Both the position numbers and the translations under genes were made by a program. Below the pieces are notes generated by a model, which worked only from the letters and a program-made list of their open reading frames with translations, searched no databases and was not told the origin of the DNA. A stretch of DNA of 64,000 nucleotides from an uncultured Ulvibacter sp. (GTDB lineage Bacteria > Bacteroidota > Bacteroidia > Flavobacteriales > Flavobacteriaceae): assembly GCA_913063405.1 (NCBI GenBank), contig CAJXZB010000016.1, forward strand, positions 1 through 64,000. Direction: 5' to 3'. Position 1 is the stretch's first letter. Each line of letters opens with the position of its first letter. This document shows positions 49,864-57,125 of the stretch, in pieces.

Positions 49864-50513
49864 CTATCTGTTTTTTTTAACAATTTTTAGGATGCGTTTT
49901 TCGTGGGCACTCAGCGCATCCTGTTGACTTTCAGTATTTATTAGTAGGCTATCAATAATATTTTTGTCTGTTGTTGCTATTTGTTTGTTATTTTCACCAT
50001 TGTAATAGTAGTATGTTGTTTTAACTCTATAGCCTTCATCTGATGTTTTATTTTCAAGGTTATTTTTCCTTGGGGCGTTTGTTTTCAATTTTTTATCGTT
50101 GATCGTTTTTTCTGCGTTTTTCTTTTCAAGGCCCAACTCCTTAGAGACTACATCAGTTTTTAAGGCCTGTTTTAATGAATTTTCGTTTAAAGGTTCCGAT
50201 ATAACATCAGATGATGCATTTTCATTTGATTGTACTTTGGAGGTCACTTTTTGATTGCTGCTATCAATTGAGACATTAATTGTTTGCTTTTCCAAATTAT
50301 TATCTGATATTATTTTTGGAACAACCGCATAGAGCAATGTAACTATCAATAAAAAAAGCCTCCTCCAGCCCAAAGCCAAAATACTCTTTTTCGCTTTTCG
50401 TCTTTTTTATTCAAAGTTGCGTCAACTCTATCCCATAAAATGGTACTCGGTGTTTTTTGAACACCATGAAGCTTCTTTTCTAAAAGCGTTCCTATATCCT
50501 CTTTATTCTTCAT
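49864..50513 (-). pseudogene. anti-sigma-like membrane protein, frameshifted in a poly-T tract
   Basis: ATG 50513 opens MKNKEDIGTLLEKKLHGVQKTPSTILWDRVDATLN, like the N-terminus of the anti-sigma candidate at 12883. It then enters a membrane segment (VFWLWAGGG) that is interrupted in a T7 run (A7 on the plus strand, 50351-50357). With one more T it continues LLLIVTLLYAVVPKIIS and a polar extracytoplasmic part to 49864. Overlaps the end of the sigma gene by 11 bases. Both partners of the pair are broken. Confidence 0.7.
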
Positions 50514-51064
50514 GGCTTGTTAATTTAGTTTTATTTGAGGCGTTTAATTCTAAAATCTTATCCCGTAAAATCAACTTCGATCGATGGTAGTTTGATTTTG
50601 AAGTGTTTTCGGAAATACCCAGCATTTTTGCTATTTCTTTATGCGAAAAACCATCCATTTGATACAAATTAAAAACGAGACGGTACTGATCTGGCAACTC
50701 CTGAATTAATTTTAAAATTACATCCAGGTCTAAGTTTGTCATCTCAGAATCAATAATTGTATCATCTTTTAGAATTTCATTCTTTATTGCAATTGGCAAA
50801 GCTCTCTTAGTCTTATTAAGAGTCTATGGCTTTATAGATGGTAATTCGTTTCATCCAACCTTCAAAGGATCCGTTGTTTTTATAAGTTCTTATTTTCTGA
50901 AAGATGGTGATAAAAGCGTCATGTAAATTATCCTCAGCGTCTACTTCATTTCTACAATATTTTAAGGATAACAGAAAAAGGGCATCCTTATATCGCCTGA
51001 AAAGCTCGCTTTGAGCTTTACGATCGTTTTTTATGCATTTTTTTATTAAGTCTTCTGTATTCAA
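50503..51064 (-). pseudogene. ECF sigma factor, frameshifted between regions 2 and 4
   Basis: The first frame (51064-50816) is region 2 (MNTEDLIKKCIKNDRKAQSELFRRY, SFEGWMKRITIYKAIDS). The second (50799-50503) is region 4 (LPDQYRLVFNLYQMDGFSHKEIAKMLGISENTSKSNYHRSKLIL). The junction near 50818 needs a one-base deletion to read KAI-TLNKTKRALPIAIKNE. It ends overlapping the anti-sigma gene. Same class as the intact sigma at 12330. Confidence 0.75.
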
Positions 51065-51084: not shown

Positions 51085-52114
51085 TTAACTAAAGAAACAA
51101 GAAATAGCCTCAATGATTATTTCAAAAACTTCGCTCGTTTCAACGTATTCAATTCGAACGTATATGGTTTGTGAGTTTTCCACGTTCAGGTATTGCGTAT
51201 TTGAGATAGAGTTGGTCCCATTATATGAATCTTCTTCCGTTTCATAAAAAGTAAATAATATTGGAGATACCAAATCATGAGTATTTGGTATTATATTACA
51301 AATTAAATAGTCCTCTAGGGAGAATTCAGCAAATCCCGGATCTGTGGTTAATTCACACACCTGATATCTCCCCAGGGAACAATCAATTGTACAGTTTTTT
51401 TCAAGAAGGGATATTGAATTATTGGCTGCTAGCTCTATGGCATCTTCACTCAACGAAAGAATTAACCAATCAAAATTCCATGATTCTGCGATTAGACCAT
51501 CATTGTTGATGTTAATATTTAAGTGTAATTCGTCTCCAATATATAAGGTAGTCCAAGTTTCAAAGTAAATTGTATTGTCTAGATGAAACTCAGCAATTGC
51601 TTCGTTGTTGATTCTAAATGTGGCGCTCTCATATTCATTTGGATAATCATCGACAGACTTTACTTCCCACACGCAGTCTCTAAGTATATTATTGCAATAT
51701 CCGTGATATTCTTCTTTTACGCCATGCATCGATGGCTTCCTTTAGGTCCTGATTATTATTTATGTCTATGAGATCGCCACTATTCAAAGTACCGGTAATT
51801 GGGTAGCTCAAACTTATTGAATAACTATCTGGTAGCTCGCTTAGAAAATTACTGAATTGCTCATTGTTGGTAATTGAGGTCACTTCGAGAAAAACCAAGT
51901 TTTCATCAAAAACGAACAACGGGAACGAATAATTAAAGTCAATACAATCGATAGGATCATCGGTAAGGGTTGCAATTCGCGCAATTAGATGATAAAGCTC
52001 AGAGTCCACTTCAATCGTATCCCTGTTAATATTCAATTTACCAATAGGTTCATCCTCGCAAGAGTACGACAACACTAATGTGACACAGAACAAGTAGAAA
52101 ATTATCTTTTTCAT
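51085..52114 (-). pseudogene. lipoprotein, frameshifted; paralogue of the Kazal-like lipoprotein's N-domain
   Basis: ATG 52114 with lipoprotein signal (MKKIIFYLFCVTLVLSYSC). Residues 20-130 contain CIDFNYSFPLFVFDENL and ITNNEQFSNFLSEL, resembling FCFDFVYPINL and INNEEEFATLIES of the lipoprotein at 52299. Near 51722 one extra G shifts the frame; removing it joins LKEAIDA to CVKEEYHGYCNNI and the long second part (to 51085). That part is beta-rich (VWEVKSVDDYPNEYESATFRINNE). It lies 21 bases upstream of the broken sigma gene. Function unknown. Confidence 0.65.
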
Positions 52115-52298: not shown

Positions 52299-53183
52299 TT
52301 AACAATCGATAAAGTCAGTATATCCCTCACATTCTGCATAGCAAGCGTTTAAGAAGATTAGAGTAATAATTTCACCATTTACTTCAGTTTCAACACACAC
52401 TGGGTCTTCTACTTGAGAACATTCATCTTCACAGCTTGTTATTTCACAATCGATAAAGTCAGTATATCCCTCACATTCTGCATAGCAAGCGTTTAAGAAG
52501 GTTAGAGTGGTAATTTCACCATTTACTTCAATTTCAACACACACTGGATCTTCTACTTGAGAACATTCATCTTCACAGCTTGTCATTTCACAATCGATAA
52601 AGTCATCTTCAGTAAATCCTTCACATTCTGCATAGCAAGCGTTTAAGAAGGTTATAATAATAACCTGATTATTTTCTATAACTTCAACACACACTGGGTC
52701 TTCTTCTTGAGGACAATCATCTTCACACGATTGATTAAAATCACAACTTTCAATTAAAGTAGCAAACTCTTCTTCGTTATTAATAGAAATTATTTCAATT
52801 TCATTAGTATCTTGATTATAAACTTCGACTTGGAAAGGAAATTCGTTGCCTACTATAAAAAGGTCATTAGTAGAATTGATAAGTACTTCGATAAGTCCTT
52901 CAAAATTATTTACAATGACTGTGGTACCATTATTATATCCTAAATTAATGGGGTAAACAAAATCAAAACAGAAATCGAAAATGATATTTCCAGTTGGATT
53001 TTCTAGATCATTTAAGGTGCCATCTTCATTAATGAGGAGGTCTAAACTAGAAAGGGCACTTCTTAAAGAGGCGCTTTCTGTTACATTTGCCATATCATCA
53101 ATAATATCATCATTGTTTTGGCAAGATGTTAATGCCAAAATGGCTATTAACATTGAGAAAAAAAATAATTTCATGTTTTTCAT
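52299..53183 (-). CDS. lipoprotein with three Kazal-like six-cysteine repeats
   Basis: 294 aa. Lipoprotein signal ending ALTSC (Cys21). N-domain 35-147 has paired segments also seen in the broken lipoprotein at 51085. Then come three repeats, each with six Cys: 153-198, 203-246 and 251-294. Spacing is C-x3-C-x7-C-x17-C-x3-C-x8/10-C, with DPVCVE and FLNACYAECEGYT. DPVC...NACYAEC is the signature of Kazal-type inhibitor-like domains. Surface-anchored protease inhibition or ligand binding is inferred. It is divergent from the sigma/FecR/TonB operon (137 bases between starts) and probably belongs to that system. Confidence 0.75.
   Translation of the reverse strand: MKNMKLFFFSMLIAILALTSCQNNDDIIDDMANVTESASLRSALSSLDLLINEDGTLNDLENPTGNIIFDFCFDFVYPINLGYNNGTTVIVNNFEGLIEVLINSTNDLFIVGNEFPFQVEVYNQDTNEIEIISINNEEEFATLIESCDFNQSCEDDCPQEEDPVCVEVIENNQVIIITFLNACYAECEGFTEDDFIDCEMTSCEDECSQVEDPVCVEIEVNGEITTLTFLNACYAECEGYTDFIDCEITSCEDECSQVEDPVCVETEVNGEIITLIFLNACYAECEGYTDFIDC
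52303..52734 (-). repeat. 144-bp tandem coding repeat (three copies)
   Basis: Near-identical copies begin at 52303, 52447 and 52591 (CAATCGATAAAGTCA each time), a period of 144 bases or 48 codons. The copy starting at 52591 has a 6-base in-frame insertion and is more diverged, the other two differ by a few bases. Recent duplication; copy number may vary between strains. Confidence 0.9.
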
Positions 53184-53284
53184 TTGAATATTTTTTAAAG
53201 TTAGAACACATTATTCTAACCGGTTAATATTAGGACACCTTATGTAAAAAACACCCTACCAAAAAACATTCTTAATTTTTTGCA

Positions 53285-53292
53285 TAGTTTTG
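53285..53292 (+). promoter_or_regulatory. -7 element of the sigma/FecR/TonB operon
   Basis: TAGTTTTG fits TAnnTTTG, 27 bases before the sigma-factor ATG. A TTG at the usual distance is not clear. Confidence 0.4.
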
Positions 53293-53319
53293 AAGTTGTA
53301 AATTACAAATTAATTTTTG

Positions 53320-53832
53320 ATGCCCAATAACACAGAAAATATTTGCGACACTAAAGTTTTTAAAAAGTTGTTTGAGAAGTATGCTAAAGATTTAAAGCGT
53401 TATATCTATTTTAAAACCCAAGATGTAAACTTGACCGAGGATATTATACAAGAAACATTTGTAAAATTATGGGATCGTTGCGATAGTGTTAACTATTTAA
53501 AAGTAAAGAGTTATTTATATACTGTAGCTACTAATATTTTTTTGAATCATATTAGACATGAAAAAGTTAAAAAAGTATACCAAAGTAATTATGTGAAGGG
53601 GAGTACCAATGAAACTCCTGAATTTGTACTTCTTGAAAAAGAATTTTTAGAAAAAATTGAAAAAGCAATAAAAGACTTACCCCCATTACAAAGAGAAGTT
53701 TTTTTATTGAGTAGAATTGAAAAAAAGAAATATAAAGAAATGGCAGAAATATTACAGATTTCAGTTAAAGCAGTAGAAAAAAGAATGCATTTGGCTTTAA
53801 AAGATATCAAACAAAAAATAGGAAATGTTTAA
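53320..53832 (+). CDS. ECF sigma factor, FecI-like
   Basis: 170 aa from ATG 53320 (a TTG immediately upstream is the alternative). Region 2: FEKYAKDLKRYIYFKTQDVNLTEDIIQETFVKLWDRC, then YLKVKSYLYTVATNIFLNHIRHEK. Region 4: LPPLQREVFLLSRIEKKKYKEMAEILQISVKAVEKRMHLALKDIK. This is the Bacteroidota FecI-type ECF class, normally controlled by a FecR-type anti-sigma, whose gene starts 56 bases downstream. Confidence 0.9.
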   Translation: MPNNTENICDTKVFKKLFEKYAKDLKRYIYFKTQDVNLTEDIIQETFVKLWDRCDSVNYLKVKSYLYTVATNIFLNHIRHEKVKKVYQSNYVKGSTNETPEFVLLEKEFLEKIEKAIKDLPPLQREVFLLSRIEKKKYKEMAEILQISVKAVEKRMHLALKDIKQKIGNV

Positions 53833-53887
53833 ATTAGTATTTAAAAGTAGGGTAATTTATTTTTAAGTTGTCATAGTTATACGAAAG

Positions 53888-54817
53888 ATGGAAAAAAAAG
53901 TAAGTCATATTGATAATGAAACCTTTCTTGCCAAATGGATGGAAGGTGAAATAACAGATAAAGAACTAAAAAGCTTAATTTCTGATGCCGATTATTTAGC
54001 CTATCATAAAATGAAAAGAGGGATAGGCGCCATAGAGTATCTAGAGTCTCCTATAAAAAAGTCATTTGCTTCAATACAAAGTCAAATTGATAATAAAAGA
54101 AAATCAAAAGTTATAAAATTGAAAAGGTATTGGACTATTTCTATTGTAGCTTCTATACTATTGCTTTTTGGGTTATTTTCAATGTTTAAAAGCTCTAGTG
54201 AAGTCATTGTTACATCCATTTCAGAACAAAAAATAATTCAACTATTAGATGGATCAGAAGTTGTTTTAAATGCAAAGTCAAGGCTTCAGTATAATGAAAA
54301 AACTTGGGAAAAGAATAGAGAAGTTAATTTAGATGGCGAAGCTTTTTTTAAGGTAAAAGAAGGAAGTGCATTTACCGTAAAGACAGGTAATGGTACAGTG
54401 ATTGTATTGGGTACACAGTTTAATGTAAATTCAAGTTTAGATTTCTTTGAGGTAATTTGCTATGAAGGAAAAGTGAAAGTAAATAACTCTACTGAAAACT
54501 TTGTATTGACCCAAAATGAATCATTTAGAAAAATTAATGGAAATCCTATAGAACAATGGAATACAATAAGGGAGGAGCCTTCTTGGTTGGATGGAGAAAT
54601 TAGTTTTATAAGTGTTCCGTTAAAATATGTGATTAATGATTTAGAAAAGCATTATCATATTAAGTTTGATTCTAAAAACATTGATGAGAAAATGATTTAT
54701 ACTGGTAGTTTTAGCACTCATAATTTAGATATTGCTTTAACTGCAGTTTTTAAAACAATGGGTATAGAATATTTTAAGAATAATGAAAAAATGTATGTGC
54801 TTAGTCACTCAAAATGA
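53888..54817 (+). CDS. FecR-family anti-sigma factor
   Basis: 309 aa. Cytoplasmic sigma-binding N-terminus (ETFLAKWMEGEITDKELKSLISDADYLAYHKMK), one transmembrane helix (about 81-98, WTISIVASILLLFGLFSMF), then the FecR domain (KIIQLLDGSEVVLNAKSRLQY, REVNLDGEAFFKVKEGSAFTVKTGNGTVIVLGTQFNV). The C-terminal DUF4974-type domain (FISVPLKYVINDLEKHYHIKF...TGSFSTHNLDIALTAVFKTMGIEYF) contacts the receptor. It relays the signal from the TonB receptor to the sigma factor. Overlaps the receptor gene by 35 bases. Confidence 0.92.
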   Translation: MEKKVSHIDNETFLAKWMEGEITDKELKSLISDADYLAYHKMKRGIGAIEYLESPIKKSFASIQSQIDNKRKSKVIKLKRYWTISIVASILLLFGLFSMFKSSSEVIVTSISEQKIIQLLDGSEVVLNAKSRLQYNEKTWEKNREVNLDGEAFFKVKEGSAFTVKTGNGTVIVLGTQFNVNSSLDFFEVICYEGKVKVNNSTENFVLTQNESFRKINGNPIEQWNTIREEPSWLDGEISFISVPLKYVINDLEKHYHIKFDSKNIDEKMIYTGSFSTHNLDIALTAVFKTMGIEYFKNNEKMYVLSHSK

Positions 54818-57125
54818 AATTAAAGTTCTCATTTGGGTAATATGTTTAAGTTTCACTTTATGCTCTTTTTCACAAGAAAAGAAAAAGGCGACTTTATATT
54901 TTAATAAAGAACCCTTAGTGTCAGCTCTTTCTATTCTTGAAGAAACATTTGAAGTACGTTTTTCCTTTCCAGACCATCTTTTAGAAAAAGAATATATAAC
55001 ACTTTCTTTTAAGGAAAAAGAGTTGCAATTTTTATTATCAGAAATAACATCTCAAACCTCTTTAATTTTCCAAGTTATTAATGAACGGTATATAATTATA
55101 ACTGAAGATACTTTGTCTTTAAATAAAATTCAGGCATTAGAAAATGTGATTATTAGTGGTTATTTAACAGAAGGAATAGCAAAAAAAAAGAATGCTGTTT
55201 TTTTGATAAAACCTAATAAAATTGGATTATTACCTGGGCTTATTGAGGCAGATGTATTAGAAAGTCTACAACAATTACCTAGTGTGATAAGTCCTAACGA
55301 AACAGCTTCTGGATTTACAGTTAGAGGTGGAGGATTTGATCAAAATAGAATGATATGGAATGGCATTAATATATACCATAAAGGACACTTATTTGGAATG
55401 ATTTCTGCTTTTAATTCGAATAGTTCAAATCAGGTATTGTTTATTAATAAAGGAACTCATCCTAAATATGGTGAGCGTATATCAAGCGTAATAGATATAT
55501 TCTCCAAATATAGTATACCCCATAAAGTTGAAGGTGATATTAGTATTAATGGCATTAGTGCAAATGGATATATAAATGTTCCAATACTAAAAGATAAATT
55601 AAATGTTCAGGCTTCAATTCGGAGAAGTTATACAGAATGGTATGAGTCTTTTACATTTAAAGAATATGCTAAAAAAGTATTTCAAACAACAAAAATTGAA
55701 CATGCCAAAGATTTGTATGATGATTTTAATTTTATCGATTATAATATAAATATAAATTTTCACCCAACAAAAAATCATAAGATCAACCTAGGTACAATTT
55801 ATATTGATAATCAATTGGATTTTATAGTGAAAGACACTGATAAAGAGGCGTCATTTAATGACGTTTTATCTATTAAAGATGAAGGTTATGGATTTAATTG
55901 GAAATGGAATTTAAGAGATAAGTATCTGGTAAAGACAAATGCTTTTGTTTCAAAATATAGATTTAATTATAATTTTATTGAAAGTAATACAGAAGGACAA
56001 ATATCAGATTTTGATAAACGAAATATAATTTTTGATTCTGGGTTTTCTTCTGAAGTTGAATTTAAAAAATCACAAGAGCAATTGTATTCACTAGGATATC
56101 AATACAGCTTTAAGGATGTTAGTTACGCTTATTTAAAAACCGAAGAACTTGCTTTTGTATTAGATACAGATCAAAGAATCGCCTCAACACATTCATTATT
56201 TGGAAATTTTTCATATCAAAATAATCCAGATTTATCTTTGAATATAGGATTTCGCGTTAATTATTACAATCAACTTGAAGAGGTTAAAATTGAACCAAGA
56301 ATAGTATTTTATAAACATATTTTTAATAATATAGGCCTTCAATTATCGGGTGAAATTAAAAATCAGATACTAAGTGAAATTGATGAAACAATTATAAGTG
56401 ATTTATCTTTAGAAAATAAATTATGGAGGTTGGTAGATGGAACAAATTTTCCAATATTAAATAGTAAGCAAGTTTCTGGAGGATTTATTTATAGTACTAA
56501 TGGTTGGATTATGGATGTAGATTGTTTTTATAAAAAAATAAGAGGTGTTTCAGCATTATCACTAGGTTTTTTAAACCCTGAGGATAGTGGTTTTCATATA
56601 GGAGAACAAAATGTAATAGGAGTTGATTTTTATCTCAAGAAAAATATAAATAATCTACTTGTTTGGCTAAGCTATTCATTTAATGATGTAAAATCTAAAT
56701 TTGAAGGGATAAATAACGAGGAATATTTTCCGTCAAACACGAATATCAATCATGTTTTTTTTACTTCATTTACTTATAAAATAAAAAGTTTTCGACTGGC
56801 ATTATCATGGAATTGGAGAACAGGAAAACCATTTACAGAATCTATAACGGAACCTACTACAAATGAGATTAGTTTTCAAGAAATTAATTCGAAGAGATTG
56901 CCAGATTATCAGCGTATGGATATTTCATCCACTTATCAATTTAATCTTTCTGAGCAAAGAGGAATAAATGGAAAAATTGGTTTTTCTATTCGAAATATTT
57001 TTAATCAAAAAAATCATATCAGCAGAGAGTATTTGGGTAATAATAGTTTAGCTGATCCCATAGAGGTAGTAGATAAAACCTCCTTAGGGTTTACTCCTAA
57101 TTTTTTATTTAATCTTACTTGGTAA
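54783..57125 (+). CDS. TonB-dependent receptor with STN signalling domain
   Basis: 780 aa. Signal peptide region to about residue 30 (VLIWVICLSFTLCSFSQ); ATG 54783 overlaps fecR and an ATG at 54795 is possible. STN-like domain 35-112 (LYFNKEPLVSALSILEETFEVRFSF, LIFQVINERYIIITED) interacts with FecR. Plug about 120-250 (GLIEADVLESLQQLPSVISPNETASGFTVRGGGFDQNRMIWNGI). The 22-strand-type barrel ends in LGFTPNFLFNLTW. No SusC-type carboxypeptidase-like domain and no adjacent SusD. Ligand unknown; the divergent Kazal-like lipoprotein is a candidate partner. Confidence 0.88.
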   Translation: MKKCMCLVTQNEIKVLIWVICLSFTLCSFSQEKKKATLYFNKEPLVSALSILEETFEVRFSFPDHLLEKEYITLSFKEKELQFLLSEITSQTSLIFQVINERYIIITEDTLSLNKIQALENVIISGYLTEGIAKKKNAVFLIKPNKIGLLPGLIEADVLESLQQLPSVISPNETASGFTVRGGGFDQNRMIWNGINIYHKGHLFGMISAFNSNSSNQVLFINKGTHPKYGERISSVIDIFSKYSIPHKVEGDISINGISANGYINVPILKDKLNVQASIRRSYTEWYESFTFKEYAKKVFQTTKIEHAKDLYDDFNFIDYNININFHPTKNHKINLGTIYIDNQLDFIVKDTDKEASFNDVLSIKDEGYGFNWKWNLRDKYLVKTNAFVSKYRFNYNFIESNTEGQISDFDKRNIIFDSGFSSEVEFKKSQEQLYSLGYQYSFKDVSYAYLKTEELAFVLDTDQRIASTHSLFGNFSYQNNPDLSLNIGFRVNYYNQLEEVKIEPRIVFYKHIFNNIGLQLSGEIKNQILSEIDETIISDLSLENKLWRLVDGTNFPILNSKQVSGGFIYSTNGWIMDVDCFYKKIRGVSALSLGFLNPEDSGFHIGEQNVIGVDFYLKKNINNLLVWLSYSFNDVKSKFEGINNEEYFPSNTNINHVFFTSFTYKIKSFRLALSWNWRTGKPFTESITEPTTNEISFQEINSKRLPDYQRMDISSTYQFNLSEQRGINGKIGFSIRNIFNQKNHISREYLGNNSLADPIEVVDKTSLGFTPNFLFNLTW

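Follow-up and report, generated by a model that had tools for sequence, protein, structure and literature searches.

In E. coli, FecI-FecR-FecA signalling joins an extracytoplasmic function (ECF) sigma factor, a FecR-type regulator and a TonB-dependent receptor with an N-terminal signalling domain (PMC9249621, accessible part); a cell-surface signalling system of Pseudomonas aeruginosa, in a phylum different from the one considered here, likewise consists of receptor, anti-sigma factor and ECF sigma factor (PMC2729926, accessible part), and in Bacteroidota the SusCD and BtuB-BtuG systems pair a TonB receptor genetically with an outer-membrane lipoprotein (PMC10404256, accessible part). Here we analyse a locus in the first 64,000 nucleotides of contig CAJXZB010000016.1 (assembly GCA_913063405.1, uncultured Ulvibacter sp.), hereafter the window, where a gene for a lipoprotein with Kazal-like repeats on the reverse strand is divergent from genes for a FecI-type sigma factor, a FecR-type regulator and a TonB-dependent receptor, all on the forward strand (Table 1). 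With an ECF sigma factor, FecR and a TonB receptor whose N-terminal signalling domain is identified through FecR_C, this is by its components a FecIRA locus. Compared with E. coli Fec regulation as it is generally known, no transport genes are seen here, one divergent lipoprotein gene shares the promoter-like element of fecR, and a -7 box of housekeeping type precedes the sigma gene. The P. aeruginosa system is presumably PUMA3/VreI, for which we know of no lipoprotein with Kazal repeats or with the N-terminal domain, here called YPI, of the lipoprotein described below. Unlike the partners in SusCD and BtuB-BtuG, this lipoprotein has no SusD match, is divergently transcribed and is sometimes kept without the receptor.

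FecIRA signalling and the Kazal scaffold are known kinds. Their combination seems not to have been described in the literature searched, nor do the YPI domain and the two-promoter logic. Titles and abstract openings, with subscription journals poorly covered, gave among the matches listed no description of Kazal lipoproteins in Bacteroidota, of this promoter element or of this module. An earlier reading, made from the letters of the window (the sequence-only reading), knew of no described example.

We consider it rather probable that the locus is a FecI-FecR-STN-receptor surface-signalling module with a hyperacidic, modular lipoprotein as its dedicated output. Gene order, conservation, promoter elements, domain homology and composition, all properties of sequence, carry this reading, and from them we infer sigma recognition, surface exposure, the direction of signalling and the effector role. 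A housekeeping-type promoter would transcribe the sigma gene, and an extracellular ligand would act via the N-terminal domain of the receptor on FecR, so that the sigma factor is freed; the freed sigma factor would then fire two promoters bearing the same element, that of fecR and the receptor (feedback) and that of the divergent lipoprotein, which would be anchored by its N-terminal cysteine, carry the constant YPI domain and display a variable number of cystine-stapled Kazal-like modules.

Table 1. Features of the locus, in window coordinates.
Feature	Position	Strand	Basis or remarks
Lipoprotein gene	52299..53183	-	294 aa; lipobox Cys at residue 21, signal peptide, YPI domain, three Kazal-like repeats
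Kazal-like repeat 3, residues 251-294, nearly a copy of repeat 2	52302..52433	-	95% DNA identity
Kazal-like repeat 2, residues 203-246	52446..52577	-	six-Cys layout; AlphaFold2 mean pLDDT 92.2
Kazal-like repeat 1, residues 153-198	52590..52727	-	six-Cys layout; repeat alignment
YPI domain (approximately residues 60-150); predicted structure: two strand-strand-helix units	52734..53006	-	alignments of relatives; AlphaFold2; no Pfam family
Promoter-like element GTAGGGT-N15-TGTCCTA, facing the lipoprotein gene	53231..53259	-	perfect genome match; conserved in relatives
TAGTTTTG, agrees with the -7 box TAnnTTTG and faces the FecI-type sigma gene	53285..53292	+	consensus from PMC9723704 (accessible part)
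FecI-type ECF sigma factor	53320..53832 (start 53317/53320)	+	Sigma70_r2 and Sigma70_r4_2 over Pfam cut-off; TIGR02985 over cut-off
Promoter-like element GTAGGGT-N15-TGTCATA, directly before fecR	53847..53875	+	perfect genome match; conserved
FecR-type anti-sigma regulator	53888..54817	+	PF04773 and PF16344 over cut-off
TonB-dependent receptor, 780 aa, N-terminal STN/FecR_C-like signalling domain	54783..57125	+	Pfam FecR_C/STN and Plug

The sequence-only reading had described a lipoprotein with three six-cysteine repeats, two of them nearly identical, divergent from an operon for a sigma factor, FecR and an STN-type receptor, and coordinates, DNA repeats and Pfam domains agree with that description. 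It had also proposed a search for conserved linkage as a check, and this linkage is found, the genes forming a conserved set in marine flavobacteria; Psychroserpens, Winogradskyella and Aureisphaera galaxeae are among those with linked loci. A lipoprotein search of 299 family genomes gave a match in 23, the window's own included, many with the same divergent order. A pattern scan of named genomes, which used segments of the lipoprotein sequence and none from the receptor, returned 79 loci (L numbers below) with 80 lipoprotein open reading frames (ORFs), divided by record title and kind into 68 of flavobacterial type (two from records named only Bacteroidia) and 12 others. The lipoprotein ORF is divergent from sigma and fecR genes in 59 of the 68, and the receptor comes next in 58, the contig of L153 stopping inside fecR. 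Among the displayed upstream neighbours of the 12 others (from Saprospiraceae, Lewinella, Phaeodactylibacter, one Chitinophagales record, one Sphingobacteriales record and further records), none matched the window's sigma factor, FecR or receptor.

The nine unlinked flavobacterial-type ORFs comprise two at contig ends (L168, L170), two extra copies in receptor-holding genomes (the second copy of L174, and L194) and five (L123, L132, L156, L161, L171) in genomes that lack a close receptor (best identity 31-33% in four; none at E <= 1e-30 for L161). For L123, L132 and L171, comparison with seven linked loci showed 57-82% identity between the gene that precedes the lipoprotein and the one that follows the receptor in those loci, so the three-gene cassette seems to have been lost and the lipoprotein kept. 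The genes at the outer flanks fall into 11 clusters on the receptor side (57 loci) and 10 on the lipoprotein side (55 loci), with a largest cluster of 32 loci and seven singletons on each side; inheritance of a single neighbourhood can therefore account for only part of the pattern, although one neighbourhood is common to many of the loci. The contig that carries both L174 and L037 has a YPI-Kazal lipoprotein on either side of a single sigma-fecR-receptor operon, and the second copy of the lipoprotein has no promoter element.

The element shared by the two promoters, GTAGGGT-N15-TGTCNTA, starts some 60-90 bases before the lipoprotein start codon in aligned upstream sequences (76 in the window, where its -10-like part lies 48-54 bases before the ATG); before fecR it starts 37-44 bases upstream in the named loci and 35-60 over all. 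We counted it by regular expression in the 79 named loci, in a strict and a loose form (GTAGGG[TA]-N14-16-TGT), within the first 60 bases of each ORF and the 150 bases before it (the 100 bases before it in the case of fecR). The loose form precedes 54 of 59 linked lipoprotein genes (45 strict), 58 of 59 fecR genes (40 strict) and five of nine unlinked flavobacterial-type lipoprotein genes (four strict); in the same loci it precedes none of the 12 other-type lipoprotein genes, none of the 61 sigma genes or 58 receptor genes and none of the 863 remaining ORFs. The five misses among the linked lipoprotein genes are one-base variants (L152, L165, L167, L178) and one ORF start called too early (L157). 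Linkage and element counts across loci together rule out that the genes are chance neighbours. Since the element is shared, the lipoprotein looks like a co-regulated output of the sigma factor, which would recognise both copies; the spacing and the TGTC/CGTC-like -10 part resemble those of ECF promoters. TAnnTTTG stands upstream of 54 of 61 sigma genes, compared with 145 of 586 other ORFs. In the accessible part of PMC9723704, TAnnTTTG is the -7 box consensus of the flavobacterial housekeeping sigma factor, and a CGT box is reported for an ECF-type motif.

Perfect copies of GTAGGGT-N15-TGTCNTA occur at two sites only in the window genome (3.16 Mb, 85% complete), both in this locus, and the pattern with a spacer of 17 has no match in the window. 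The genome holds 11 one-mismatch sites, of which two belong to a second module and nine lie near genes whose products do not match module proteins, so the element or look-alikes of it occur elsewhere in the genome. Five of the one-mismatch copies in the window genome (L203, L204, L206, L211, L212) are of the TGTT form and lie near other genes, some of whose proteins open with a signal peptide and 'QIVTIPD'; these genes may be targets of another sigma factor.

The second module (contig 50, L256, 1567-6737) encodes a YPI lipoprotein without Kazal repeats, a sigma factor, FecR and an 856-aa receptor, and TGTT replaces TGTC at both of its promoters. The same covariation is seen between loci: the two promoters agree in having or not having TGTC in 48 of 54 linked loci (table 40, 3, 3, 8; Fisher p 2e-5), and in the exact four letters in 45 of 54. 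Thirteen distant loci were chosen for display; by eye, 12 share one form at both promoters, mostly GTAGGA in L103-L120 and CGT in L046, and L044 has no element before fecR. A wider proposal, which we put forward tentatively as a possibility, is a family of modules whose FecI-type sigma factors would each have a separate discriminator (TGTC, TGTT, CGT or GTAGGA) and control just the receptor-operon promoter and one swappable divergent surface effector; the YPI-Kazal lipoprotein would be one such effector and could bind the receptor as a bait or cap, closing a feedback loop at the surface. A readable element with locus-specific variants offers a way to propose sigma-factor targets from sequence alone.

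From the receptor side the pairing with the lipoprotein is clade-bound. In a search that scored three candidates per genome, relatives at E <= 1e-60 were found in 207 of the 299 family genomes, many inside FecI-FecR operons, and to our knowledge the outputs of such operons are mostly unknown. At E <= 1e-170 there are 13 matches, 10 with the divergent lipoprotein, one at a contig end (L111) and two beside other genes (L081, L082). A further 40 loci, L081-L120, were picked, in most cases according to the rank of the receptor match and in a few for a weak match to the lipoprotein; the divergent lipoprotein matches the window's in two (L084, L112) and matches instead the YPI-like ORF adjoining the window locus in eight (L103, L104, L107, L114, L117-L120), and inspection by eye shows YPI-like repeats in L108 and L109. 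The divergent gene elsewhere encodes a putative HExxH metalloprotease (L092, L093, L105, L106), a thioredoxin-like protein (L083, by eye) or others. A GTAGGGT-type element precedes the putative metalloprotease gene in L092 and L093, and the presence of the same element before other divergent genes of sister clades, an HExxH lipoprotein among them, fits an output slot. The putative metalloprotease contains HEFGH in all four loci and, judged by eye, a lipobox in three of them (L092, L093, L106).

The identity of the receptor follows from its Pfam matches to Plug and FecR_C/STN. PF16344 (FecR_C) is over its cut-off at residues 38-106 of the window receptor, and the same family is found in eight of nine aligned members; STN itself (PF07660) has no match in the window receptor and matches three of the nine (E <= 0.01). 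Plug is below its cut-off in the window receptor (18.4 of 23.9 bits) and matches nine of nine aligned members at E <= 0.01. PDB searches with the receptor or its alignment gave zero matches. The receptor ORF overlaps fecR by 35 bases.

The reading of the lipoprotein as a dedicated output is supported by the 59 of 68 linked loci, by the element at both promoters and by retention of the lipoprotein in five genomes without a close receptor. Several points weigh against it. Relatedness among the genomes makes the counts too high, with 32 loci in the largest flank cluster; the five receptor-less genomes are metagenome assemblies and possibly incomplete; several receptor relatives have no adjoining YPI lipoprotein (L081, L082, L085-L091 and others); and the promoter covariation test (Fisher p 2e-5) ignores phylogeny. 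When up to two mismatches are allowed, the genome has 62 sites of the element and 83 of its backward control, so that no excess is seen; such sites being noise, only perfect or phylogenetically supported ones are used here. Finally, a ligand-capturing partner of the receptor would be just as likely to be encoded next to it and co-regulated.

Such a partner is the main alternative: the lipoprotein would capture ligand at the surface as SusD or BtuG does, with YPI docking on the barrel and the variable modules binding cargo. The conserved pairing and the shared promoter element accord with this, and BtuB-BtuG is a precedent for the pairing of a TonB receptor with a surface lipoprotein of another kind (PMC10404256, accessible part). 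However, the lipoprotein is a separate divergent transcription unit, it is retained without a close receptor in the five genomes above, and related receptors sit beside unrelated divergent genes, so that we regard a capture role as rather unlikely. SusD families had no match in Pfam scans of the window lipoprotein and its relatives, and no SusD-like or peptidase gene is evident adjoining the locus in the ORF list examined by eye, the flanking genes having been only partly scanned; to that extent the absence of such genes noted in the sequence-only reading holds.

As the output of the sigma factor, the lipoprotein would have one constant part and several exchangeable ones. YPI is the N-terminal domain common to the flavobacterial lipoproteins of this family and is their constant part, with the consensus stretches FDFCFDFVYP..LSYNNGTTVTVN..LI and FPF.VE..TINNE.EF..LLE.C; no Pfam family matched it in the window protein or the relatives scanned. 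An AlphaFold2 model of YPI plus one repeat (residues 36-203) has a mean pLDDT (predicted local distance difference test) of 83.9, and Foldseek gave no significant structure match for it. The lipobox cysteine is followed by QNNDD, which is similar to the export signal of Bacteroidetes lipoproteins, polar residues and then acidic ones (PMC5080379, accessible part), and display at the cell surface is therefore likely.

The lipoproteins are strongly acidic. In 65 mature proteins (L121-L184), Lys+Arg has a median of 0.56% and a maximum of 5.7%, compared with 9.0% in a reference set of 105 further lipobox ORFs from the loci retrieved, and Asp+Glu stands at 20.5% compared with 14.2%; the window protein has 1.7% and 20%. 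Three linked proteins (L188, L190, L046) carry after YPI Asp-rich repeats that match TSP_3 below the Pfam cut-off, which suggests that acidic modules of another kind, perhaps calcium-binding ones, replace the Kazal-like modules.

The Kazal-like repeats form a 144-nt DNA repeat family in the window (52299-52442; 52443-52586, 95% identical; 52593-52736, 74%; spacing 144 and 150 nt), and all three have six cysteines in the layout C2-x7-C3, C4-x3-C5, N-x-C4. A regular-expression pattern that itself demands the six-cysteine layout gathered 203 repeats in the family, 142 of them with a C2-C3 spacing of 7. By the same means, the 59 linked lipoproteins have no repeat in three cases, one in six, two in 33, three in 11, four in four and five in two; of the three without, L181 has one degenerate repeat by eye and L188 and L190 truly have none. 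Linked lipoproteins without repeats rule out the Kazal repeats as the point of linkage.

The Kazal-like nature given in the sequence-only reading is borne out by sequence, through family profiles. Assignment from a single sequence failed in Pfam, NCBIfam and PDB: the window lipoprotein alone had no match to Kazal families in Pfam or NCBIfam at E <= 1, a single window repeat had none in PDB at E <= 10, and a Pfam scan of nine relatives gave no Kazal match. A Kazal_2 search of the window's own genome also found nothing, an uninformative result because control genomes gave none either. A profile of 72 aligned repeats, in contrast, matched leech-derived tryptase inhibitor in PDB over all 41 positions (E 2.2e-6). 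This search returned 22 matches at E <= 10, ten of them at E <= 0.01 (among these two AAEL006007-PA, Greglin and RHODNIIN), which we take to be known protease inhibitors. A Lewinella protein with 11 such repeats (L189) is over the PF07648 cut-off (37.2 compared with 22.8 bits); five proteins akin to it (L186, L192, L193, L195, L197) and the Flavobacteriaceae proteins scanned gave no Kazal match. Saprospiraceae-type proteins (L185-L187, L189, L192, L193, L195, L196) have up to 12 such repeats and follow a same-strand gene of 361-377 aa, not beside FecIR genes; five of the six scanned carry a Por_Secre_tail type IX secretion domain.

Comparisons of folds are weaker. VIA-align gave 14 rows with Z >= 2 for the YPI-plus-repeat model, the best being an unrelated DnaK chain on another part of the model (Z 3.0); seven of the 14 sit on the repeat and are Kazal or follistatin chains, weak matches that include rhodniin (Z 2.7; root-mean-square deviation, rmsd, 3.8; 46 aligned) and ovomucoid third domain (Z 2.5; rmsd 4.7; 39 aligned). 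For the repeat alone, one row of 352 was a follistatin domain (Z 2.8, rmsd 2.0, 39 aligned), and Foldseek gave no significant match for the single-repeat model.

With Kazal_2 (PF07648) and leech-derived tryptase inhibitor the repeats share the six cysteines, C2-x7-C3, C4-x3-C5 and the PVC and N-x-C motifs, and they differ in a longer C3-C4 segment, a mostly acidic P1, near-zero Lys/Arg and a tandem arrangement on a lipoprotein. The C3-C4 segment has 13-19 residues in the 203 repeats, and 17 in all three of the window; this is longer than in the PDB-aligned inhibitors and exceeds the roughly 10 residues of a Kazal domain. P1, which we take to be position C2+2, is Asp in 70, Glu in 56, Gln in 15 and Ala in 13 of 202 repeats (one of the 203 being unparsed), with other residues in the rest and Lys or Arg in 0; it is Gln in all three window repeats. 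Altogether, the 9136 residues of the 203 repeats include 6 Lys+Arg and 2003 Asp+Glu. An acidic P1, the lack of Lys/Arg there and Gln in the window speak against inhibition of trypsin-like proteases. We class the repeats as divergent Kazal homologues, an optional add-on, and not as Kazal inhibitors; they are probably something other than ordinary protease inhibitors, and most likely acidic, protease-hardened binding or spacer modules rather than trypsin-type inhibitors. Bacterial lipoproteins have, on this evidence, adopted Kazal-type scaffolds in a version that is hyperacidic and almost devoid of Lys and Arg.

Inhibition of another kind, with the lipoprotein as a sigma-induced inhibitor of unusual specificity, for instance against glutamate-specific proteases, would make sense of a Kazal scaffold with Asp or Glu at P1 in most repeats and of a leech inhibitor as the closest solved relative by profile; yet P1' is also Glu or Asp in 97 of 202 repeats, the window repeats have Gln at P1 and the C3-C4 segment outgrows that of the PDB-aligned inhibitors, and we think this explanation improbable. 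Least probable is the protease-directed system suggested in the sequence-only reading, of which the linkage and the Kazal homology stand and in which the repeats would trap, or be cut by, extracellular proteases while the receptor would read the inhibitor or whether it has been cleaved: the STN/FecR_C-like domain of the receptor and the HExxH putative metalloprotease in the same slot of sister loci fit it, but the repeats are optional, being absent from two linked proteins and from the second module of the window genome and degenerate in a third protein, and at P1 126 of 202 repeats have an acidic residue and none has Lys or Arg, against trypsin-like inhibition.

Adjoining the locus, the window holds a short YPI-like lipoprotein ORF (51689-52114, reverse strand), overlapped by an ORF in another frame (51085-51729); a frameshift, or a mistake in the assembly, has perhaps split a single lipoprotein gene into these two. 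Also on the reverse strand, another ECF gene of the sigma-70 family (50503-51064) is divided over two frames, with region 2 in 50816-51064 and region 4 in 50503-50799.

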